Part shown: piece by piece, positions 2,960 through 38,257 of the stretch
Layout: each line of letters begins with the position of its first letter
Numbering within the stretch: the first letter of the stretch is position 1
DNA from: Antarcticirhabdus aurantiaca
GTDB lineage: Bacteria > Pseudomonadota > Alphaproteobacteria > Rhizobiales > Rhizobiaceae
Assembly (NCBI RefSeq): GCF_009765365.1
Contig: NZ_VTOM01000004.1
Coordinates: 248,001 to 312,000, forward strand
Length of the DNA stretch: 64,000 nt
Reading direction: 5' to 3'
Program-made: the position numbers and the translations under genes
Notes under the pieces: model-generated
What the model was told of the DNA's origin: nothing
The model's database searches: none
What the model saw: the letters and a program-made list of their open reading frames with translations, nothing else

Positions 2960-3976
2960 TCACAGCGGGAAGTGGCAGGCGGCGAGGGTGCCGCCGTCCT
3001 TGGCCTCCAGGCGCGGGCGCTCGGTGCGGCAGCGATCCCGCGCGCGCGGGCAGCGCGGCTCGAAGCGGCAGCCGGCGGAGATCTTCGTCGGGCTCGGCGG
3101 CTCCTTGGCGGGCAGGCGGGCGCCGCGCGCCTTGCGGATGCCGAGGTGCGGCTCCGGGATCGCGTCGAGGAGCGCCGCCGTATAGGGATGGCGCGGCGCC
3201 TCGAAGATGGCGTCGACATCGCCGATCTCGACGATCGCGCCGAGATACATGACCGCCACCCGCGTCGAGATCTGCCGCACCACCGCGAGGTCGTGGGCGA
3301 TGAAGACGTAGGTAAGGTTGAAGCGGTCGCGCAGATCGCAGAAGAGGTTGACGATCTGCGCCTGGACCGAGACGTCGAGCGCGGAGACCGGCTCGTCCGC
3401 GACGATGAGCTTCGGCCGCAGCGCGAGGGCGCGCGCGATGCCGATGCGCTGACGCTGGCCGCCGGAGAGCTCGTGGGGATAGCGCCGGGAAAAGTCCGCC
3501 GGCAGCTCGACGCTGGCCAGAAGCTCGGCGACGCGGCCTTCGATCTCGGACGAGGCGGCGAGACGGTGGACGCGCAAGGGCTCGGCCAGAAGGTCGCCGA
3601 TCCGCCGGCGCGGGTTCAGCGAAGCGTAGGGGTCCTGGAAGACCATCTGCAGCTCGGCGCGCAGCGGGCGCATTTGGCGCATGGGCAGCGCGCCGATGTC
3701 CCGGCCGTCGAACTCCAGCCGGCCGCCGGACAGGTCGTGGAGCCGCGTCAGGCAGCGCCCGAGGGTGGACTTGCCGCAGCCGGACTCGCCGACGAGCCCG
3801 AGCGTTTCGCCGGGCATGACGGCGAAGGACACGTCGTCGACCGCCGTCAGCACGCGGCGCCGGGACGGGAACCAGGAGCCGCCGGTCACGAAGCGCTTGG
3901 TGAGGCCGCTCGCGCGCACCAGCGGGCGCGGTTCGGCAGCGACAGCGGCGGGAGCGAGGGGGCCGAGGGCGGGCAT
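2960..3976 (-). CDS. oligopeptide/dipeptide ABC transporter ATPase (OppF/DppF type)
   Basis: A 338-residue ABC ATPase with Walker A GESGCGKST, Q-loop FQDPYASLNP, signature LSGGQRQR, Walker B LIVADEPVSALD and an H-loop histidine (FIAHDL). The C-terminal oligopeptide-transporter extension has HPYTAALLDAIPEP and a cysteine-rich GCRFEPRCPRA segment, as usual for OppF/DppF. The ATG at 3976 is used; a GTG at 3985 would give a 4-nt overlap with the preceding ATPase gene and is equally possible. It is the last gene of the leftward five-gene transporter operon. Confidence 0.92.
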   Translation of the reverse strand: MPALGPLAPAAVAAEPRPLVRASGLTKRFVTGGSWFPSRRRVLTAVDDVSFAVMPGETLGLVGESGCGKSTLGRCLTRLHDLSGGRLEFDGRDIGALPMRQMRPLRAELQMVFQDPYASLNPRRRIGDLLAEPLRVHRLAASSEIEGRVAELLASVELPADFSRRYPHELSGGQRQRIGIARALALRPKLIVADEPVSALDVSVQAQIVNLFCDLRDRFNLTYVFIAHDLAVVRQISTRVAVMYLGAIVEIGDVDAIFEAPRHPYTAALLDAIPEPHLGIRKARGARLPAKEPPSPTKISAGCRFEPRCPRARDRCRTERPRLEAKDGGTLAACHFPL

Positions 3977-3981
3977 CGCGG

Positions 3982-4989
3982 TCACGCGGCGAGATCCCCG
4001 GCGCGGCGGAAGCCCTGCTTGGTCTCGCCCGGCAGGAAGCAGGCGACGCGCTGCGCGCCCTCGGGAGCGAGCGGCGGGCGCGCCGCGCACGGGGCGAAGG
4101 CGTAGGCGCAGCGGGGCGCGAAGGCGCAGCCCGTTTCCGGGGCGCCGCGCGAGGGCGGCAGGCCGGGAATGCCGGTGAGCCGCGCCGGCCGGGGGCCGCG
4201 CAGGGGCGGGATCGAGTTGAACAGGCCGTGGGTGTAGGGGTGGCGGGGCGCCGCGAACAGCGCCTGCACCGGCCCGCTCTCGACGATCCGGCCGGCATAC
4301 ATGACCGCGACCGTGTCGGCGATCTCGGAGACCACGCCGAGATCGTGGGTGACGAAGACGATTCCCGTGCCGTGGTCGCGGCGCAGCCGGTCGAGAAGCG
4401 CCAGGATCTGCGCCTGAACCGTCACGTCGAGCGCCGTCGTCGGCTCGTCGGCGACGATGAGCTTGGGCTCGCAGGACACGGCCATGGCGATCACGACGCG
4501 CTGTCGCATGCCGCCGGACAATTCGTGGGGATAGCGCTCGACGACGCGGGCCGGATCGGGAATGCCGCATTCGGCCAAAAGCGCCACGGCCTTGTCGCGG
4601 GCCGCGCGGTTTGAAAGCGAGGAATGGGCGCGGATCTGCTCGACGATCTGCCAGCCCACCGTGTGGACGGGGGTGAGCGCCGTCATCGGGTCCTGGAAGA
4701 TCATCGCCGCCTTGGCGCCGCGGATGCGGCGCAGGCGCCGGTTCGGCATGCCGACGAGTTCCTCCCCGTCGAGCCGCACCGAGCCGGAGAGAACCGCGTT
4801 CGGATCGAGGATCAGGCCGAGGATGGAGAGCAGCGTCTGCGTCTTGCCCGAGCCGGATTCGCCGACGAGGCCGAGGACCCGGCCGGCTTCGACCTCGAGG
4901 GAAACGCCCTCGACGGCCTGGACCAGCCCGCGCTCGGTGCGGAAGGCGACGGACAGGTCGCGGATCTGGAGAAGCGGCTCAGCCGGCAC
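3982..4989 (-). CDS. oligopeptide/dipeptide ABC transporter ATPase (OppD/DppD type)
   Basis: A 335-residue ATPase with GESGSGKTQT (Walker A), FQDPMTALTPVHTV (Q-loop), LSGGMRQR (signature), LIVADEPTTALD (Walker B) and FVTHDL (H-loop). The C-terminal HPYTHGLFNSIPPL and Cys-containing GCAFAPRCAYAF extension define the OppD/DppD subfamily. It overlaps the upstream permease gene by 11 nt and almost touches the OppF-type gene, so the two ATPases are translated together and presumably form the heterodimeric motor of one importer. Confidence 0.93.
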   Translation of the reverse strand: MPAEPLLQIRDLSVAFRTERGLVQAVEGVSLEVEAGRVLGLVGESGSGKTQTLLSILGLILDPNAVLSGSVRLDGEELVGMPNRRLRRIRGAKAAMIFQDPMTALTPVHTVGWQIVEQIRAHSSLSNRAARDKAVALLAECGIPDPARVVERYPHELSGGMRQRVVIAMAVSCEPKLIVADEPTTALDVTVQAQILALLDRLRRDHGTGIVFVTHDLGVVSEIADTVAVMYAGRIVESGPVQALFAAPRHPYTHGLFNSIPPLRGPRPARLTGIPGLPPSRGAPETGCAFAPRCAYAFAPCAARPPLAPEGAQRVACFLPGETKQGFRRAGDLAA

Positions 4990-5953
4990 GGCGCACCCTC
5001 GGATCGATCACGGCATAGAGCGCGTCGACGAGCGCGTTGGCCGCGACGACGAAGAAGGAGGCGTAGAGCACGGTCGTCAGGATCACCGGCAGGTCGAGCG
5101 TCTGGAGCGCGTCGTAGGTCAGCTTGCCGACGCCGCGCAGGCCGAAGACCACCTCGGTGAGGAGCGCCCCGCCTCCGATGAGAGCCCCGAAGTCGAGGCC
5201 GAACATGGTGACGAAGGCGATCAGCGAGGAGCGGACCCCGTGGCGCAGGAGGATGCGGCTCTCGGGCAGGCCCTTGGCGCGGGCGGTGCGCACGAAGTCC
5301 TCCTGCATGGTCTCGATGAGGTCGGCGCGCAGGATCCGGCCGTAGAGCCCGATATAGAGGATCGCGAGCGTCACCCAGGGAATGACGAGCGCCTTGAACC
5401 AGCCGGCGGGGTCGGTGAGGAGCGGCTTGTAGCCGAGCGGCGGGACCCAGGAGAACAGAAAGGTGTGGTGCAGCCGGCTCTGGCTGAGGAGGTTCATCAC
5501 CTCGCCCACCCAGAAGACCGGCATCGAGACGCCGACGAGGCTGAGCGCCATCAGCCCGCGATCGGTCCAGCCGCCGCGCGTCGCGGCCGCCGCGACGCCG
5601 ACGATCAGCCCGCCGATCACCCAGAGCACCGCGGCGCCGAGAACGAGGGAGAGCGTGACGGGGATCGCCTTGATCACCGCCGGCACGACCTTCTGACCCC
5701 GGTTCACGAAGGAGGTGAGGTCCTGGGTCACGAAGAGGCGCTTCATCATGACCGCGTATTGGACCGGCAGCGGCTGGTCGAGGCCGAAGCTCTGGCGCAC
5801 CTGGGCGAGCGTCTCGGGCGAGGCGTTGCGGCCGGCGATGCGCGCGGCGGGGTCGCTGCCGGGGGTCGCGAAGAAGATCAGGAAGACGACGACGCTGATG
5901 CCGAACATCACGAAGACGAGCCGGCCGAGGCGGGACAGGATCGCGACGAGCAT
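4979..5953 (-). CDS. peptide ABC transporter permease (DppB/OppB type)
   Basis: A 324-residue inner-membrane permease. The N-terminal segment (ILSRLGRLVFVMFGISVVVF) and FATPGSDP.A..AGRNASPE are the OppB hallmark; the EAA-type cytoplasmic loop (DFVRTARAKGLPESRIL) contacts the ATPases. About six membrane spans are apparent. The start at 5953 shares one base with the stop of the next permease (TGATG), a sign of translational coupling. Confidence 0.92.
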   Translation of the reverse strand: MLVAILSRLGRLVFVMFGISVVVFLIFFATPGSDPAARIAGRNASPETLAQVRQSFGLDQPLPVQYAVMMKRLFVTQDLTSFVNRGQKVVPAVIKAIPVTLSLVLGAAVLWVIGGLIVGVAAAATRGGWTDRGLMALSLVGVSMPVFWVGEVMNLLSQSRLHHTFLFSWVPPLGYKPLLTDPAGWFKALVIPWVTLAILYIGLYGRILRADLIETMQEDFVRTARAKGLPESRILLRHGVRSSLIAFVTMFGLDFGALIGGGALLTEVVFGLRGVGKLTYDALQTLDLPVILTTVLYASFFVVAANALVDALYAVIDPRVRRAG

Positions 5954-7017
5954 CAGGCGATCCTGACCTTGGCGCGGGGATCGAAGGCATCGCGCACGCC
6001 GTCGCCGAGGATGTTGAGGCAGAGGACGGTCAGCGCCACGGCGAGGCCCGGCGCCAGCGCCACGATGGGCCGCGAATAAAGGAGCCCCTGCCCGTCCTGG
6101 ATGATCGTGCCCCAGGAGGCGTCCGGCGGCTGGACGCCGATCGACAGGAAGGAGAGCGAGGACTCCGTGATCATGTTCAGCGCGAGAAGGATCGGCACGA
6201 GGACGATGACCCGCGGCATGATGTTGGGCAGGAGGTCCTTGACGAAGATGCGCCAGGGCGGGACGCCCAGCGCGATGGCGGCGGCGATGAACTCCGAGCG
6301 CATGAGGCTCAGCGTCTGTCCGCGGATCGGCCGGGCGACGTAGGGAACGTAGACCACGCCGATGATGGCGATGGGCAGCCAGAGGCTGCCGGCGCGGATG
6401 TCGATCGGGCCGATCGTCAGGCCTTCCGCGATGAGGACGATCGAGAGCGAGATCGCGAGAAGATAGATCGGGAAGGCCCAGAGGACGTCGAGGACGCGGT
6501 TGAGCACCCCGTCGACGATGCCGCCGAAGAAGCCGCAGAGAAGGCCGATCGCGACCGCGAAGACGAGCGTCAGCACCGTCGCCGCGCCGGCGATGAGCAG
6601 CGAATTGCGCCCGCCATAGAGCATGCGCGCGGCCACGTCCCGGCCCTGGTTGTCGGCGCCGAGCATGTAGGGGCCGAGCGCCCAGGTCGGGCCGATCGGC
6701 GTGACGCCGAGGCCGAGGCCGGTGGTCGAGGGCGCGAGCACGGGCTGCGCCGTGCCGTCGATCGTCACCTCGCCGTTGAGGTTGGTGGCGAAGGGGTTGG
6801 TGCCGGAAACGGCCGAGGCGTAGAGGGGCGCCGCGGCGCAGGCGAGCGCGACGAGGCAGAGAATGGCGAGCGCCACCATGGCGCCCCGGTCGCGCCTCAG
6901 CCGCCGCCAGGCCGTCGCCCAGGGACCAAACGACGCCTCCTTCGCACCCCCAAGAGCGGGGTCCGGCAGCGGAGCGGCGGCGGGCAGAGCGGACGGGTCG
7001 AGGATGCGGTCGGTCAC
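5953..7017 (-). CDS. peptide ABC transporter permease (DppC/OppC type)
   Basis: A 354-residue permease. The N-terminal cytoplasmic region is followed by the DppC membrane anchor (GAMVALAILCLVALACAA), a long periplasmic loop, the GADNQGRDVAARMLYGGRNSL motif region, and the EAA loop near EFIAAAIALGVPPWRIF. The GTG at 7017 is chosen because the frame further upstream loses homology. The periplasmic loop contains a roughly 50-residue insert (NPFATNLNGEVTIDG to GPTWALGPY), longer than in many DppC proteins. Confidence 0.9.
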   Translation of the reverse strand: MTDRILDPSALPAAAPLPDPALGGAKEASFGPWATAWRRLRRDRGAMVALAILCLVALACAAAPLYASAVSGTNPFATNLNGEVTIDGTAQPVLAPSTTGLGLGVTPIGPTWALGPYMLGADNQGRDVAARMLYGGRNSLLIAGAATVLTLVFAVAIGLLCGFFGGIVDGVLNRVLDVLWAFPIYLLAISLSIVLIAEGLTIGPIDIRAGSLWLPIAIIGVVYVPYVARPIRGQTLSLMRSEFIAAAIALGVPPWRIFVKDLLPNIMPRVIVLVPILLALNMITESSLSFLSIGVQPPDASWGTIIQDGQGLLYSRPIVALAPGLAVALTVLCLNILGDGVRDAFDPRAKVRIA

Positions 7018-7085
7018 GAGGCGCCGTGTTCCTGTGGCGGCGGCAAGCGCGGGGACGAAGACCGCCCGCGCTCGCTGCCAAAAGC

Positions 7086-8750
7086 TTACTGGACCGCGAG
7101 CTTGGAGAAGATCGCGTAGAATTGCGGGCTGAAGGTGAAGTTCTGGACCCGCGAGGAGACGAAGTCGACGCGCTTCGGGGTGAAGAGCACGGCGGCGGGC
7201 GCCGCGTCCGTGACTTGTCTGTCGACCTCCGTCCAGATCGGCAGGGCCGAGGCCGGATCCGTCACGGCGGCGGCGAAAGCCTCCTTCATCTTGGCCTCGA
7301 CGGCCTCGTCGCAGAAGCCGGCGATGTTGACCGAGGCGTCCGAGCCCGGGTGGAAGGAGCCGCAGGAGAACAGGACGTTCAGGAAGTTCGAGGGCGAGGG
7401 ATAGTCCTGGAACCACTGCGAGATCGAGATCTGCACCTTGTTGTTGGTGTTCTGGATGTAGGTGAACTGGAGGTTCTGCGAGATCGGCTGGACGCTCGCC
7501 TTGTAGCCGAGCTCGGTCAGGACGTCCTGGAGGTAGACGCCGATGGCGCGCGACACCACCGTGTCCTCGGCGATGATCTTCACCTCCTGGCCCGCCGTCC
7601 CGGATTCGGCGACGAGGGCCTTCGCCTTCTCCATGTCCGGCGCGCTCCAGGTCGTGCCGGGATTGGCCGTGTAGGGGCAGTAGGGCTCATAGCCGGGAAA
7701 GCCCGGCGGCAGGATCTGGCAGGCCGGCTGGGCGAGGTTGGCGCCGCCGAAGAGCTTGACGATGGCGTCGCGGTCGATGGCGAAGTTCACGGCTTGGCGC
7801 ACCTTCGGATTGTCGAAGGGCGCAAGGTTCGTGTTCATCGGCGCGTACCACATGGCCGAGAGCGGGTGCAGCGACACCTGGCTCTCGTACTGCGTGCCGA
7901 TCTCGGCGAGGCGGTCGGGCGGGGGCGGGTCGAACATCCAGTCGGCGTCGCCGTTCTGGATGGCGGTGACGGCCGCCTCCTCGGTCAGGCCGAAATCGTA
8001 CGAGATGTCGTCGACGAAGCCCTCGGGCTGGGCATCGGCGCTCCATTCCTTGAACTGAGGGTTGCGCACGAGCTTCAGCGAGGCGTTGGGGTCGTAGGAC
8101 TGGACGGCATAGGCGCCGGTGCCGGGGATCGGGGTCGTGCCCTGGTCGCTGGCCGGCGTCGCGGCCGGCAGGATGTAGGCGTGGGGCACGGCGAGCTTCT
8201 GGAGGAACTCGCCGTCCGGGGCGGTCAGGTTGATCGTGACCGTGCCCGCCGCCTTGTCGGCGACGACGCCGCCCTCCAGCGTGCAGTCGGCGGGCGCCGA
8301 GAGGCATTTGTCGGCGCCGACGATGCCGTTGTAGAAGGTGCCCGCGGTCGGGCCGGAGACCTTGAAGATGCGCTGGAGCGAGGCGACGACGTCGTCCGTC
8401 GTCAGGTCCTGCCCGTTCGAGAACTTGATGCCCGGACGGAGCTTGAAGGTGTAGGTCTTGCCCTCGTTCGTCGCCTCGGGCAGCGCCTCGGCGAGATCCG
8501 CCACGACCTCGAAGCCCGTCTCGTCGCCGACCTTCCGGAAGGTCACGAGGCCGTCATAGGCGATGTAGAAGACCTGCCACTGCTGCAGCGTGTAGTTGAT
8601 GTGCGGGTCGATCGTGCCGGAGGCCGCGCGGGCGAGCAGGCGCAGCGAGCCGCCCTTCTCCTGCGCGCTCGCGGGCGCGATGGCCACGCCGAAGAGGACG
8701 GCACCGCCCGCCAGGGCGGCGGCAAGGGCTCGAAGTCTCAGCCGGTGCAT
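7086..8750 (-). CDS. peptide ABC transporter substrate-binding protein (SBP_bac_5)
   Basis: A 554-residue periplasmic binding protein. A signal peptide ends near SAQEKG (residue ~30), followed by the family-5 start GGSLRLLARAASGTIDPHINY, the KLRPGIKFSNGQDLTTDDVV segment and VRQAVNFAIDRDAIV. Cysteine pairs occur (CLSAPADC, CQILPP..YCPY). It is the first transporter gene of the operon, 110 nt downstream of the LuxR-family gene, with its own promoter-like motif. By analogy with PipR-linked transporters it may import a plant-derived amide or peptide-like signal; that is inference. Confidence 0.92.
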   Translation of the reverse strand: MHRLRLRALAAALAGGAVLFGVAIAPASAQEKGGSLRLLARAASGTIDPHINYTLQQWQVFYIAYDGLVTFRKVGDETGFEVVADLAEALPEATNEGKTYTFKLRPGIKFSNGQDLTTDDVVASLQRIFKVSGPTAGTFYNGIVGADKCLSAPADCTLEGGVVADKAAGTVTINLTAPDGEFLQKLAVPHAYILPAATPASDQGTTPIPGTGAYAVQSYDPNASLKLVRNPQFKEWSADAQPEGFVDDISYDFGLTEEAAVTAIQNGDADWMFDPPPPDRLAEIGTQYESQVSLHPLSAMWYAPMNTNLAPFDNPKVRQAVNFAIDRDAIVKLFGGANLAQPACQILPPGFPGYEPYCPYTANPGTTWSAPDMEKAKALVAESGTAGQEVKIIAEDTVVSRAIGVYLQDVLTELGYKASVQPISQNLQFTYIQNTNNKVQISISQWFQDYPSPSNFLNVLFSCGSFHPGSDASVNIAGFCDEAVEAKMKEAFAAAVTDPASALPIWTEVDRQVTDAAPAAVLFTPKRVDFVSSRVQNFTFSPQFYAIFSKLAVQ

Positions 8751-8814: not shown

Positions 8815-8860
8815 CTTTAATCCGGCAGGGCGTTCGAGCTAGCTATCAAAAGCGATAGGG
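8815..8860 (-). promoter_or_regulatory. putative LuxR-box promoter of the binding-protein operon
   Basis: On the minus strand CCCT, nine bases, GATAGCT, 20 bases, then TTAAAGCT. The same arrangement with a 21-base spacer lies upstream of the proline iminopeptidase gene. Here CTATC and GATAG also form a 5-bp dyad around six bases. TTAAAG would be a -10-like element about 60 nt before the ATG, and the dyad would sit next to the -35 position, as lux boxes do. Inferred binding site for the adjacent LuxR protein. Confidence 0.5.
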
Positions 8861-9625
8861 TCAGAGCGCCGCGTCGAGCAGGCGGTAATGCGCGGCGCGC
8901 GCGACGGCCTGGAAGCGGTTCTTCGCGCCGAGCTTCCGGCCGGCGCTGTTGAGGTGGAGGGTGACGGTCGGCACCGAGCGGTCGAGCTTTCGCGCGATCT
9001 CCTTGGCCGTCAGGCCCTCGGCGCAGAGGCTGAGGCACTGCGCCTCGCGCGGCGACAGGCGCATGTGGCGCGAGCGGCGCGTTTCCCCCGAGAAGCCGGC
9101 GCGCGCGATCTCGTGGAAGCTCTGGCCGATCACGCCGACGAGGGGCGCGAGGGCGCCCGCGCGCTCCGAGAAGTCGGTGTCCGGATCGATGCAGATGGCG
9201 GTGAAGGTTGCGAGGTCCCCGCCGGGATGGTGGATCGGGACCGTCACGCCGCAGGAGAAGCGCATGTCGCGCATGTAGCCGAGCACGGGATCGTGGCGCC
9301 GGCACAGCACGGTCTCCATCACCCGGCTCTGCCGCCCGAGGCCGGACCAGACGAAGGGCGCGGCGGTGGCGAGCGCGGCGTCCTGCACCGGATCGAGCTG
9401 ATAGAAGCCGGAGCGCCAGAGCTGCATCATGTCGGCCGGCACGCGCCGCGCCTCCAGGATGTTCGGCGTGATCAGAACCCCGTCATGGGTGCGCGGCACG
9501 GGCGTGTAGTCGTAGATGACGGCGGTGAAGCCCGCATCCCCGACGAGCCCGAGGGCGGCGTCGAGCGCGGCGTCGAAGCCCATGCCGGGCGTCAGGCGAG
9601 TCTGGATATCGGGCAGGTGTGGCAT
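8861..9625 (-). CDS. LuxR-family solo regulator of the plant-responsive OryR/PipR type
   Basis: 254 residues: an N-terminal autoinducer-binding domain (about 10-165) and a C-terminal GerE helix-turn-helix (LSPREAQCLSLCAEGLTAKE, ~190-250). In the binding domain M66 and W70 occupy the places held by W57 and Y61 in AHL-binding TraR/LuxR, while D78-P79 and W93 are kept. This M/W replacement is the published mark of the subfamily that senses plant compounds rather than AHLs. No luxI is present. The gene is flanked by a proline iminopeptidase gene (divergent) and a peptide importer, the known context of this subfamily. Start set at ATG 9625, where homology begins. Confidence 0.88.
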   Translation of the reverse strand: MPHLPDIQTRLTPGMGFDAALDAALGLVGDAGFTAVIYDYTPVPRTHDGVLITPNILEARRVPADMMQLWRSGFYQLDPVQDAALATAAPFVWSGLGRQSRVMETVLCRRHDPVLGYMRDMRFSCGVTVPIHHPGGDLATFTAICIDPDTDFSERAGALAPLVGVIGQSFHEIARAGFSGETRRSRHMRLSPREAQCLSLCAEGLTAKEIARKLDRSVPTVTLHLNSAGRKLGAKNRFQAVARAAHYRLLDAAL

Positions 9626-9673
9626 GAGGCTTCGAGGACAGGCGGCATGACGGGGATGCTGGCACCTTCCCGC

Positions 9674-9709
9674 CTGCCCGTCAATTATGCGCGCCCAGAT
9701 AACGGGCAG
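9674..9709. repeat. inverted repeat in the luxR-pip intergenic region
   Basis: CTGCCCGT (9674-9681) and its exact complement ACGGGCAG (9702-9709) are separated by 20 bases in the divergent promoter region. The spacing is larger than a classical 20-bp lux box. It could be a binding site for luxR autoregulation or a chance dyad in GC-rich DNA. Confidence 0.35.
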
Positions 9710-9733
9710 AAGAGCCGGCCGCGCGAGGCTCAC

Positions 9734-9780
9734 CCCTCTTCTTTTCGATAGCTGTCGGCGAACCGGCTCGGTGCTTAAAG
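9734..9780 (+). promoter_or_regulatory. putative LuxR-box promoter of the proline iminopeptidase gene
   Basis: Plus-strand CCCT, nine bases, GATAGCT (9747-9753), 21 bases, TTAAAGCT (from 9775). It matches the element in front of the transporter binding-protein gene in motif, order and spacing. The -10-like TTAAAG lies about 31 nt before the ATG at 9811. Inferred activation site for the divergent LuxR-family protein. Confidence 0.5.
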
Positions 9781-9810
9781 CTCGCAGGACCATTCGAGGG
9801 AGGCCCTGCC

Positions 9811-10731
9811 ATGTCCGCCGCCGCTGCAACCGCCGCCACGCCGTCCGCGACCGAAGGCTTCGCGCCGCACGGTTCCTACCAGACCTGGTACCGCGTGACG
9901 GGGGATCTCGCCTCGCCGCGCCTGCCCCTCGTCGTCGCCCATGGCGGGCCGGGCTGCACGCACGACTACGTCGACAGCTTCAAGGAGCTGGCGGGACACG
10001 GCCGGGCGGTGATCCATTACGACCAGATCGGCAACGGCCGCTCGACCCACCTGCCCGACAAGGGCGGCGACTTCTGGACGGTTGACTTCTTCCTGGGCGA
10101 GCTCGACAACCTCCTCGCCCATCTCGGGATCCAGGACCGCTACGCGCTTCTCGGCCAGTCCTGGGGCGGCATGCTCGCCGCCGAGCACGCGGTGCGCCGG
10201 CGCGCGGGCCTGAAGGCGCTGATCCTCGCCAACTCGCTCGCCTCGATGGAGCTCTGGGTTCGGGGCTGCAACAAGCTGCGCTCGGAACTGCCCGAGGCGG
10301 TTCAGGAGGCCCTCGACCGCCACGAGGCGGCGGGCACGACGCAGGACCCGGAATATCTGACGGCCTCCCGCGTCTTCTACGACCGCCACGTCTGCCGGGT
10401 GACGCCCTGGCCGGAGGAGGTCGCCCGCACCTTCCTGGCCGTCGAGAGCGACCCGACCGTCTACCACACGATGAACGGTCCGAACGAGTTCCACGTCGTC
10501 GGCACCATGCGCGACTGGACGGTGATCGATCGTCTGGACCGGATCGAGGCCCCGACCCTGGTGTTTCGCGGCGCCTATGACGAGGCGACGGCCGAGTGCG
10601 TCCAGCCCTTCATCGATCGTATTCCGAAGGTCGAATCCGAGGTCTTCCCGCAGTCCAGCCACATGCCCCACGTCGAGGAGAAGGAGGCCTGCCTGTCGCG
10701 CGTCGAAACATTCCTCCGGCTCCATGACTGA
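9811..10731 (+). CDS. pip: proline iminopeptidase-type alpha/beta hydrolase
   Basis: A 306-residue S33 peptidase-type hydrolase with the oxyanion motif [10 protein letters not shown] (~43-52), a nucleophile elbow GQSWGG (~115), a late aspartate (FRGAYDEAT) and a C-terminal histidine (SSHMPHVEE). This is the tricorn/PIP subfamily that removes N-terminal proline or cleaves related amides. GAGGGAGG precedes the ATG. Divergent from the LuxR solo and the peptide importer: in the PipR system the neighbouring peptidase PipA is the regulated gene, so this is the likely target here. Confidence 0.88.
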
Positions 10732-15081: not shown

Positions 15082-16590
15082 ATGCAGTTCCTCGACCTCC
15101 TCATGCTGGGGTTCTCGGAGGCGTTCACGCCGACGAACCTTCTCTTCTGCTTCATCGGCGCGCTTCTCGGCACCCTGATCGGCGTCCTGCCGGGCATCGG
15201 CCCGACGGCGACGGTGGCGATCCTCCTGCCGATCACCTTCTTTCTGCCGCCGCTCGCCGCGCTCATCATGCTGTCGGGCATCTTCTACGGCGCGCAGTAC
15301 GGCGGCTCGACGACGGCGATCCTCGTCAACCTGCCCGGCGAGGCCTCGGCGGTGGTCACCGCCATCGACGGCTACCAGATGGCGCGGAAAGGCCGGGCGG
15401 GGGCCGCCCTCGCCGTCGCCGCGCTCGGCTCCTTCTTCGCCGGCACGGTCGCGACGATCGCGCTCGCCGTCGCGGGGCCGACGCTCTCCTCCTTCGCCCT
15501 GTCCTTCGGGCCGGCGGAATACGTCGCGCTCTGCATCTTCGGCCTGCTCGCCGCGACGATCCTCGCCCACGGCTCGGTGATCAAGGCGATCGGCATGGTC
15601 TGCCTCGGCCTCCTCCTCGGCATGGTCGGCATCGACGTCAATTCCGGCTCGACGCGCCTGACCTTCGGCTCGACCGAGCTCTACGACGGCATCGAGTTCG
15701 TGGTGATCGCCGTCGGCCTCTTCGGCGTCGCCGAGATCGCGGTGAACCTCGAATCCAAGGAGCAGCGCGGCATCCTCCAGAGCACCATCGGCCGGCTCTG
15801 GCCGACCAAACAGGAGTTCAAGGAGAGCTGGGCGGCCGTCCTGCGCGGCACCGGCGTCGGCACCATCCTCGGCGTCCTGCCGGGCGGCGGGGCGACGCTC
15901 TCGGCCTTCTCCGCCTATTCGGTGGAGAAGAAGATCTCGCGCACGCCCGAGAAGTTCGGCCACGGGGCGATCGCCGGCGTCGCCGGTCCCGAGGCGGCGA
16001 ACAATGCGGGCGCCCAGTCCTCGTTCATCCCGCTCCTCACCCTCGGCATTCCGTCGAACTCGATCATGGCCATGATGCTCGGCGCCATGACCATCCACGG
16101 CATCACGCCGGGGCCGGGCGTCATCCAGAACCAGCCCGAGCTCTTCTGGGGCCTCGTCGCCTCGATGTGGCTCGGCAACGCGATGCTGCTCGTCATCAAC
16201 CTGCCGCTGATCGGCCTCTGGGTCCGGCTCCTGAAGGTGCCCTACCGGCTGATGTATCCGGCGATCCTGATGTTCTGCTGCATCGGGGTTTATTCCGTCA
16301 GCAATCGCGGCTTCGACGTGGCCCTGGTGATCCTGTTCGGCGTCCTCGGCTACGTCCTGCGGAAAGCCAAGTGCGAGCCCGGCCCGCTGCTTCTGGGCTT
16401 CGTGCTCGGGCCCCTCCTGGAAACGAACCTGCGCCGCGCGCTCCTCCTCTCGCAGGGCGACCCCCTGGTCTTCGTCGAGCGTCCGATCAGCGGCATCCTC
16501 CTCGCCGTGACCGCGGTCATGCTCCTGATGCTGGTGCTGCCCTCGATCCGGAAGAGCCGGAAGGTCGCCTTCGAGGAAAGCGAGAACTGA
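15082..16590 (+). CDS. tctA: TctA-family large permease subunit
   Basis: 502 residues with about a dozen membrane spans. The TctA signatures are GTLIGVLPGIGPTATVAILL, GIFYGAQYGGSTTAILVNLP, GVLPGGGATLSAFSAY, and FGHGAIAGVAGPEAANNAGA. Together with TctB it forms the secondary transporter that takes carboxylates delivered by TctC across the inner membrane. Confidence 0.94.
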   Translation: MQFLDLLMLGFSEAFTPTNLLFCFIGALLGTLIGVLPGIGPTATVAILLPITFFLPPLAALIMLSGIFYGAQYGGSTTAILVNLPGEASAVVTAIDGYQMARKGRAGAALAVAALGSFFAGTVATIALAVAGPTLSSFALSFGPAEYVALCIFGLLAATILAHGSVIKAIGMVCLGLLLGMVGIDVNSGSTRLTFGSTELYDGIEFVVIAVGLFGVAEIAVNLESKEQRGILQSTIGRLWPTKQEFKESWAAVLRGTGVGTILGVLPGGGATLSAFSAYSVEKKISRTPEKFGHGAIAGVAGPEAANNAGAQSSFIPLLTLGIPSNSIMAMMLGAMTIHGITPGPGVIQNQPELFWGLVASMWLGNAMLLVINLPLIGLWVRLLKVPYRLMYPAILMFCCIGVYSVSNRGFDVALVILFGVLGYVLRKAKCEPGPLLLGFVLGPLLETNLRRALLLSQGDPLVFVERPISGILLAVTAVMLLMLVLPSIRKSRKVAFEESEN

Positions 16591-16626
16591 TCCGGCGGGG
16601 CGGGCGCGCCGCCCGCTTCGAACGAC

Positions 16627-16662
16627 GCGGCCTGCGGGGGGTGCCCGATGCCCGCAGGCCGC
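16627..16662. terminator. 12-bp stem-loop after tctA
   Basis: GCGGCCTGCGGG (16627-16638) pairs perfectly with CCCGCAGGCCGC (16651-16662) across a 12-base loop in the tctA-oxidase gap. There is no T-tract. It may partially terminate or protect the tctCBA message and lower expression of the oxidase gene that follows. Confidence 0.5.
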
Positions 16663-16714
16663 CGCATGCGAGACGGGACGCTTCGGCGCCCGGAACGATG
16701 AAGGAGCATGAGGA

Positions 16715-17962
16715 ATGACGACGAGCACGCCTGGCGGGCCGAGCACCTTCGTCGAGACGCGCCGGGAGGTCCTTCCGCGAGCCGGGAAGCGGTTGCCCGG
16801 GCGCTTGCGGGATGTGCTGTGCCTCGAGGACTTTGAGCCGCATGCCCGACGGATGCTGCCGCGGCCCTTGTTCGGCTACATCGCGGGCGCCAGCGAGACG
16901 GGCGCTTCGCTGCGGGAGAACGCCACCTCGTTCAAGCGACACGCCTTTCGCCCGCGCGTCCTCACGAACGTGTCGAAGCGCAGCCAGCGCACGCGCCTCC
17001 TCGGCCGCGACTACGACGCCCCCTTCGGCATCGCGCCGATGGGGATCAGCGCGCTCATGGCCTATCGCGGCGACCTCGTTCTCGCCGAGGCGGCCGAGGC
17101 CGCGGGCATCCCGATGATCATGAGCGGCTCCTCCCTGATCCCCCTGGAGGAGGTCGCGGCGGCCGCACCCTCGGCCTGGTTCCAGGCCTATCTTCCCGGC
17201 GAGCCCGACCGCATCGACGCGCTCGTCGACCGGGTGGCCGTCGCTGGCTTCGAAACGCTCGTCCTCACCGTCGACACGGCGACGCTCGCCAACCGCGAGA
17301 ACAACGTGCGGGCCGGCTTCTCGACGCCGCTGCGCCCGAGCCTCGCGCTCGCCTGGCAGGGCGTCTCGCACCCCCGCTGGACGGCCCTCACCTTCCTGCG
17401 AACGATCGCGCGCCACGGCGTTCCGCACTTCGAGAATTCCTATGCCACGCGCGGCGCGCCGATCCTCGCCCGCTCGGTGATGCGCGATTTCGGGAAGCGC
17501 GACCATCTCGACTGGCGCCATCTCGAGCAGATCCGCCGACGCTGGCCGGGCAAGCTGGTCGTGAAGGGCATCATCAGCGCCGAGGACGCCGTCGCCGCCG
17601 TCGAGCGGGGCGTCGACGGCATCGTCGTGTCGAACCATGGCGGGCGCCAGCTCGACGGCACGATGGCGCCTCTCGACGCGCTTCCCGCCGTCGCCGATGC
17701 CGTCTCCGGACACGCAGCCGTCATGATCGACGGCGGCGTGCGGCGCGGCAGCGACGTCCTGAAGGCCCTCGCCCTCGGCGCCGACTTCGTCTTCGTCGGC
17801 CGCCCCTTCCTTTACGCCGCCGCCGCCTTCGGCCGAGCCGGGGCGGACCGCGCCGGGGCCATCCTCAAGGAGGAGATCCACCGAAACATGGCGCTCCTCG
17901 GCATCAACAGCGTCGGCGAACTGGACGCGACCGCGCTCACGCGCAGCCGGCTGCCGCGGTGA
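16715..17962 (+). CDS. FMN-dependent alpha-hydroxy-acid oxidase/dehydrogenase
   Basis: 415 residues of the lactate/glycolate oxidase family. Flavin-site motifs include FGIAPMGISALM, the catalytic-histidine segment VSNHGGRQLDG (~308), and the phosphate-binding IDGGVRRGSDVLKALALGAD. PYVGRPFLYA-type ending is present. It oxidises an L-2-hydroxy acid to the 2-oxo acid. Lying downstream of tctCBA and opposite a D-2-hydroxyacid dehydrogenase, it suggests oxidation of an imported hydroxy acid, possibly both stereoisomers. Confidence 0.88.
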   Translation: MTTSTPGGPSTFVETRREVLPRAGKRLPGRLRDVLCLEDFEPHARRMLPRPLFGYIAGASETGASLRENATSFKRHAFRPRVLTNVSKRSQRTRLLGRDYDAPFGIAPMGISALMAYRGDLVLAEAAEAAGIPMIMSGSSLIPLEEVAAAAPSAWFQAYLPGEPDRIDALVDRVAVAGFETLVLTVDTATLANRENNVRAGFSTPLRPSLALAWQGVSHPRWTALTFLRTIARHGVPHFENSYATRGAPILARSVMRDFGKRDHLDWRHLEQIRRRWPGKLVVKGIISAEDAVAAVERGVDGIVVSNHGGRQLDGTMAPLDALPAVADAVSGHAAVMIDGGVRRGSDVLKALALGADFVFVGRPFLYAAAAFGRAGADRAGAILKEEIHRNMALLGINSVGELDATALTRSRLPR

Positions 17963-38062: not shown

Positions 38063-38257
38063 CGGCGCCGGCCGGAGGCGCTGAGACGCGAGCGGTCGAG
38101 ACAGCTTCGACCCCGGCCTGTTGCGCGACCCGGCGGCTCGGCCCATAGTGAGTCGATCCGCGTGACTGGCGAGAACGGATGGATCACCATCGGGGAGCGC
38201 GGATCGTTCGCGACGCCGCTCGCCTGGGCACTCCACTTTTCCCAAGGAGCCTGCCCC

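Follow-up and report, generated by a model that had tools for sequence, protein, structure and literature searches.

A putative PAB-type LuxR solo adjoining pip and a peptide importer distinct from that of the PipR system in Antarcticirhabdus aurantiaca

Which compound would be sensed by a LuxR solo that stands between a proline iminopeptidase gene (pip) and a five-gene peptide importer, and does the importer bear on the answer? The question is raised by a locus in the 64,000-nucleotide stretch of Antarcticirhabdus aurantiaca DNA analysed here (hereafter the window), which lies on contig C34 of a 5.9 Mb genome assembled in 64 contigs. An earlier note on this DNA described a LuxR solo with M66 and W70 in its ligand pocket positions, no luxI, a divergent pip gene and a five-gene peptide ABC transporter on the other side, and this observation as a whole is confirmed (Table 1). 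The note also likened the importer to that of the PipR system and proposed an ethanolamine derivative as ligand, two claims from which the present data depart.

Table 1. Coordinates of the predicted genes and candidate operators of the locus, in window positions.
Feature	Position	Strand	Basis
Importer ATPase, OppF/DppF-like	2960..3976	-	gene order and conservation
Importer ATPase, OppD/DppD-like	3982..4989	-	profile matches
Importer permease, DppB-like	4979..5953	-	gene order and conservation
Importer permease, DppC-like, start codon uncertain	5953..7089	-	gene order and conservation
Type II family-5 substrate-binding protein (SBP)	7086..8750	-	PF00496, 240 bits; SBP tree
Perfect palindromic lux-type box CTATCAAAAGCGATAG	8843..8858	.	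CTATC-N6-GATAG
PAB-type LuxR solo, 254 aa (predicted)	8861..9625	-	Pfam, alignments, tree, AlphaFold model
Weaker box CTCTTCTTTTCGATAG, 2 mismatches, in the luxR-pip gap	9736..9751	.	consensus scan
Proline iminopeptidase-family hydrolase (Pip)	9811..10731	+	TIGR01250; divergent from luxR

The LuxR protein carries a ligand domain (residues 19-172 approximately) and a helix-turn-helix domain (approximately 189-242), and its matches to Autoind_bind (PF03472, 60.6 bits) and GerE (PF00196, 55.3 bits) both exceed the Pfam cut-offs. Its AlphaFold model (pLDDT 92.9) matches QscR, RhlR, SdiA and TraR; for the first three, Z is 18-19 and the rmsd 5-7 over about 231 aligned residues. In an alignment including TraR of pTiC58, M66 and W70 fall on TraR W57 and Y61, and the AHL-type pair is not kept. 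Both residues are invariant across the 14 rows of a LuxR alignment, and the other seven key residues (D78, P79, W93, G126, E194, L198 and G204) are retained. The same W57M and Y61W replacements and an adjacent pip have been published for OryR, XccR, NesR and PsrR. The earlier note counted PipR among the proteins with this pair, but PipR has W at both positions (PMC4981722, PMC7301841). A PAB-type LuxR with W57M/Y61W has also been reported from an aquifer isolate (PMC8105983).

To describe the relatives we use two labels of our own: type II for the LuxR clade linked to an importer of the window kind, and type I for loci with an AapF-type importer, as in the PipR system. The 15 type II rows comprise the window, an Aurantimonadaceae MAG, five Aureimonas strains, seven Mesorhizobium-like genomes and a Parvibaculaceae MAG. 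The LuxR tree contains 69 of 104 prepared rows, 35 rows of similar organisms (25 of them Pseudomonas) having been omitted and two duplicate loci removed before preparation; it took in Kosakonia, Pseudomonas and Rhizobium relatives, the named OryR, XccR, NesR and PipR being absent. In it the 15 type II LuxRs form a single clade (94/97; one group in 98% of 200 bootstrap trees) nested inside the pip-linked clade, with the outgroup (TraR of pTiC58, SdiA and the two other LuxRs of the window genome) outside, although the rooting is unsure because the outgroup branches are very long (6-7). This phylogeny, which had been proposed as a check, bears out together with the residues the assignment to the plant-signal type of regulator: sequence comparison supports a PAB ("plant-associated", OryR/PipR-type) LuxR, for which non-AHL sensing would be a reasonable expectation.

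At the position of TraR residue 57, M is present throughout type II (15/15 rows) and in type I alternates with W (51 and 33 of the 84 rows, respectively); residue 61 is W in all 99 rows of both types, and the remaining seven key positions are kept throughout type II. Type II rows depart from type I at several positions. One of them is window residue L138, which is L in 15/15 type II rows and F, Y or C in 80/84 type I rows; it lies on the same strand as T142, the equivalent of TraR T129, four residues before it, and may face the ligand pocket. One divergent LuxR from the family (locus L046, genome G007), with L at 57 and W at 61, is encoded beside Pip with neither importer adjoining; it was counted as type I in the LuxR tree and excluded from the residue and box counts.

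Compared by LuxR, the nearest named relatives are the Aurantimonadaceae MAG (98%), Aureimonas psammosilenae (82%), Aureimonas sp. AU20 (plasmid pAU20c, 81%), A. ureilytica (80%), A. leprariae (72%) and A. endophytica (71%). Since the near relatives are Aureimonas, a host-associated lifestyle of the source organism is plausible. A review lists Aureimonas as a PAB genus and describes the arrangement of the flanking genes as very conserved (PMC10134790). Among the papers listed by our literature searches, none was found to describe a type II locus.

The genome has a single LuxI-family match, on contig C2 (66795-67304; 47 bits against a cut-off of 24), where it adjoins another LuxR gene (pair at C2:66795-68087); none adjoins the window luxR. 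A third LuxR-type protein is encoded on C20, and the tree does not show it to be an AHL receptor. The organism thus probably makes an AHL, judging from its genes, and the PAB-type LuxR would coexist with ordinary quorum sensing; because of this LuxI, "solo" here means unpaired at the locus rather than AHL-free.

The neighbouring hydrolase belongs to the Pip family: it scores 261 bits against TIGR01250 (cut-off 168), has the motifs HGGPG at residue 44 and GQSWGG at residue 115, and its best solved relatives are named proline iminopeptidases. A pip gene adjoins luxR in 15/15 type II loci. A Pip tree (64 of 172 rows) did not resolve whether type II Pip goes with type I PipA or with the Pips of modules that have no luxR.

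The importer genes, co-directional and downstream of luxR, are where the locus parts from the PipR system. Against AapF (7kz8) the window SBP scores 58 bits, whereas the type I SBP of Pseudomonas asturiensis scores 849; among solved structures the closest to the window SBP in sequence is 8upi (210 bits), which we take to be a Mesorhizobium protein bound to aminoserine. A search of the window genome with the type I SBP of a Klebsiella plasmid found no AapF orthologue: it matched 13 places at 24-34% identity, the window SBP being the twelfth by E-value, while in named loci the type I SBPs share 68-97% identity with the same query. Likewise no aapA adjoins the window luxR, and the Klebsiella aapA product as query gave no clear orthologue in the genome, its best matches being the window Pip (36%) and a partial match on C22 (41% over about 119 residues). 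The missing aapA is not special to type II, because 12 of 67 type I loci have no aapA match either. In the SBP tree, type II SBPs and those of luxR-free modules form one 26-row clade (99/97), weakly resolved within and far from the type I SBPs. By these sequence comparisons the window importer belongs to a different lineage from that of PipR and is not its orthologue; its cargo perhaps differs as well. The sensor is of a kind already known, and its pairing with this importer is a variation on the PipR system. An AlphaFold model of the SBP, made with nine close relatives, had a pLDDT of 40.5 and was not used.

How widespread is this arrangement? In 151 genomes of the family, 24 matched the LuxR at E <= 1e-15, of which 19 (the window and 18 other loci) were inspected. 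The published PipR arrangement, with an aapA-like peptidase gene and importer divergent from luxR, occurs in 15 of the 19, the SBP gene being seen in 13 of these and a second, PipA-like gene after luxR in 11. The window and two other loci (L029 and L030) have the other importer, another gene order and no aapA; the last of the 19 is L046. Among the best 80 of 310 named relatives, 13 loci have the importer of the window kind, with genes 60-99% identical: the Aurantimonadaceae MAG, four Aureimonas species, the seven Mesorhizobium-like genomes (one titled just "Bacterium") and the Parvibaculaceae MAG, AU20 being the fifth Aureimonas. The type I importer is found in 66 of the remaining 67 loci, including the five Kosakonia loci seen (the genus of PsrR), and the last is cut by a contig end. 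No Xanthomonas is among these 80; the OryR loci of that genus are described with an APC transporter and no ABC importer (PMC4981722), unlike the window. A wider search of 385 genomes of the class at E <= 1e-45 gave two matches besides the window (G190 and G319), G190 being type I by its SBP. Five weak LuxR matches (31-34% identity) were also seen in family genomes.

In the Mesorhizobium and Parvibaculaceae type II loci luxR and the importer genes are transcribed divergently, with pip behind luxR, while in Aureimonas and the window luxR is oriented the opposite way, as would be expected if luxR had been inverted between the genes on either side of it. The window luxR is likewise turned round relative to pip and importer when compared with the PipR system of Pseudomonas sp. 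GM79 (PMC4981722). Downstream of the type II locus of Aureimonas psammosilenae (L051) there is an AmiC/AmiR-like pair (15883-17516), next to permease genes akin to those of the type I importer.

The importer also occurs with pip where no luxR is present. SBP matches at E <= 1e-70 were found in 13 of the 151 family genomes, three linked to luxR and ten not, with no LuxR match in the 14-20 kb inspected around each of the ten. In 10/10 of these luxR-free genomes pip immediately precedes the co-directional SBP gene, and in 8/10 it is itself directly preceded by an AmiC/AmiR-like pair, consisting of a Peripla_BP_5 protein and an AmiR_N/ANTAR protein (assigned by Pfam for seven AmiC-like and two AmiR-like proteins, and by tblastn for the others). 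These eight genomes (L152-L159) share the order amiC-amiR-pip-SBP-permease-permease-ATPase-ATPase, an apparent amide- or peptide-responsive import operon on which no publication was found among the papers listed, and their SBPs are 58-64% identical to that of the window. The best PDB match of one AmiC-like protein (L158) is 8tg1 (186 bits), followed by AmiC (1pea, 167 bits), and the best NCBIfam match of another (L153) is the urea-binding UrtA family, at 188 bits far under the cut-off of 493; AmiC is therefore one reading of this sensor among others, favoured because its partner is an AmiR_N/ANTAR protein.

Other regulators are found as well. In one further family genome (L151) and on a Shinella plasmid, a LysR gene is divergent from leucyl aminopeptidase-pip-SBP. 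On an Agrobacterium vitis plasmid the importer is accompanied by leucyl aminopeptidase, with no pip match in the stretch inspected, and on an Acidiphilium plasmid it is accompanied by pip; four of 11 matching plasmid records were inspected, besides AU20. A leucyl aminopeptidase gene is added in 4 of the 14 luxR-free loci inspected. The pip-importer module thus occurs with at least three unrelated kinds of regulator, from which we infer that what is sensed would be the imported compound or a product of it.

The perfect box of Table 1 lies 2 nt past the luxR stop codon, with its centre about 100 nt before the SBP start, and is one of two perfect CTATC-N6-GATAG copies in the 5.9 Mb; a control with the reversed pattern gave none. 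The other copy (C63:93355-93370) lies a few bases before a 392-aa ORF whose product presumably resembles phosphoserine transaminase. Since 33 of 100 shuffles of the window contained one match with up to 1 mismatch, the significance of the box rests on its position, perfection and conservation. Used with up to 1 mismatch, CTATC-N6-GATAG missed most gammaproteobacterial boxes near luxR and all those of Mesorhizobium and Parvibaculaceae, for which reason it was widened to CTAKC-N6-GMTAG, a consensus derived from the very loci scored. Allowing 1 mismatch, the wide box is found near the luxR stop (beginning 30 nt before to 110 nt after it) in 15/15 type II loci, the window included, and in 66/84 type I loci; at the opposite flank of luxR such a box occurs in 45/84 type I loci but in only 1/15 type II loci.

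Counted by target at the same stringency, the wide box precedes the importer in 7/15 type II and 45/84 type I loci and pip in 9/15 and 63/71, respectively, scores that random windows (150 per locus) reach in 4-16% of draws on average (for type II, about 13% for pip and 10% for the importer). In the luxR-free modules a box with up to 1 mismatch was found before pip in 0/13 and before the SBP gene in 1/14, two of these 14 loci being copies of one sequence. The box behind the window luxR is a probable LuxR-type operator before the importer. The weaker box in the luxR-pip gap is not significant alone, as 21% of random windows of the locus reach its score, and its block recurs almost unchanged in the loci L029, L047, L051 and L052. 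Kosakonia loci (L101 and others) have a clear box, CTAGCATTTTTGCTAG, after the luxR stop and before pip; the lux-box-like pip site printed for Kosakonia KO348, which is outside our set of loci, is a different sequence.

The reading that we consider probable is that the locus is a variant Pip/PAB signalling-and-uptake system, in which a LuxR controls a pip/peptide-import module that is regulated otherwise elsewhere. An imported peptide-like compound, such as a small peptide or an amide, would enter through the ABC importer and bind the LuxR in a pocket altered from the AHL type by M66 and W70. The LuxR would then bind the palindromic box before the importer operon and probably also the weaker box before pip, raising import as well as cleavage of the compound by Pip; import would thus provide positive and hydrolysis negative feedback. 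During evolution a PAB luxR with its boxes would have settled between pip and importer in a module for peptide use; in other genomes of the family this module has an AmiC/AmiR-like pair, or else LysR, instead, and the exchange would perhaps have run in this direction. On the one hand the window resembles the luxR-free modules with the AmiC/AmiR-like pair in its pip and related importer; on the other, those have this pair in place of LuxR and no box with up to 1 mismatch before pip. Because the importer differs from that of the best-studied plant-sensing system, the sensed compound may well differ too; a peptide-like compound brought in by the importer is the probable ligand, and it need not be HEHEAA.

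An ordinary PipR system, responding as in Pseudomonas sp. GM79 to HEHEAA or another ethanolamine-derived plant compound taken up by a linked importer, would share with the window a PAB LuxR, an adjacent Pip, a linked five-gene ABC importer and an inverted-repeat operator, the latter predicted here. PipR activates pipA through an inverted repeat needed before pipA, and an importer mutant does not respond to the PipR inducers (PMC4981722). We nevertheless think it unlikely that the window encodes such a system, given the distance of its SBP from AapF, the low identities returned by the type I query, the lack of aapA beside luxR and M/W in place of W/W. HEHEAA itself, the derivative that the earlier note put forward, is not a good prediction: it is known for PipR, a W/W protein whose importer this is not, and the M/W protein PsrR of Kosakonia gave no pip induction with HEHEAA, ethanolamine or rice root macerate, although the authors allow that psrR was possibly expressed too weakly (PMC7301841); moreover, another species is reported to have a close homologue of AapF that does not bind HEHEAA (PMC10134790). 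PsaR2, too, is described as giving no pip induction with kiwifruit macerate (PMC3909224). Less likely still is a LuxR answering AHLs from the genome's own LuxI or from neighbours, with the pip neighbourhood incidental. The LuxI and two other LuxR-type proteins of the genome would suit this idea, as would the retention of D78, P79, W93 and G126, but it is opposed by W57M/Y61W and the adjoining pip in every type II row and by the pip-linked clade around the LuxR. OryR and PipR are moreover described as unresponsive to AHLs (PMC4471428, PMC4981722); OryR and LasR have been reported to activate each other's target promoters (PMC4471428).

A third possibility, to which we give some weight while thinking it less probable than the variant signalling-and-uptake system, is that the LuxR is a catabolic regulator only, a substrate sensor for peptide scavenging with no role in host signalling, any plant association being a by-product of where peptides occur. 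The same module under AmiC/AmiR-like or LysR regulators and the added leucyl aminopeptidase genes are in keeping with it. Sequence does not separate the two; against the catabolic reading speaks the influence of PAB relatives on virulence or colonisation, known from several plant bacteria (PMC4981722).

To our knowledge, ligands have been identified for only a minority of plant-responsive LuxR solos. A clade with the same type of regulator, box and Pip but another importer amounts to a natural experiment on what sets ligand choice: the type II SBP is a defined protein that can serve as bait for the compound, AmiC-like sensors of this module hint independently at its class, and the box conserved near the stop codon of luxR gives the family a candidate operator that can be tested. 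We tentatively suggest, as a possibility rather than an expectation, that PAB luxR genes with their adjacent boxes are portable sensors joined to unrelated uptake systems (the Xanthomonas APC transporter, the AapF-type ABC importer and the ABC importer of the module), so that the importer, and not the LuxR pocket alone, would set the compound. If so, type II would respond to a peptide-like amide for whose handling related genomes use an AmiC-type sensor, and the range of PAB effectors would be widened beyond HEHEAA.

Elsewhere in the window, a ZMP/ZTP riboswitch lies at 38152-38236 on the forward strand (65.9 bits, gathering threshold 39), the sole Rfam match in the window above its gathering threshold.
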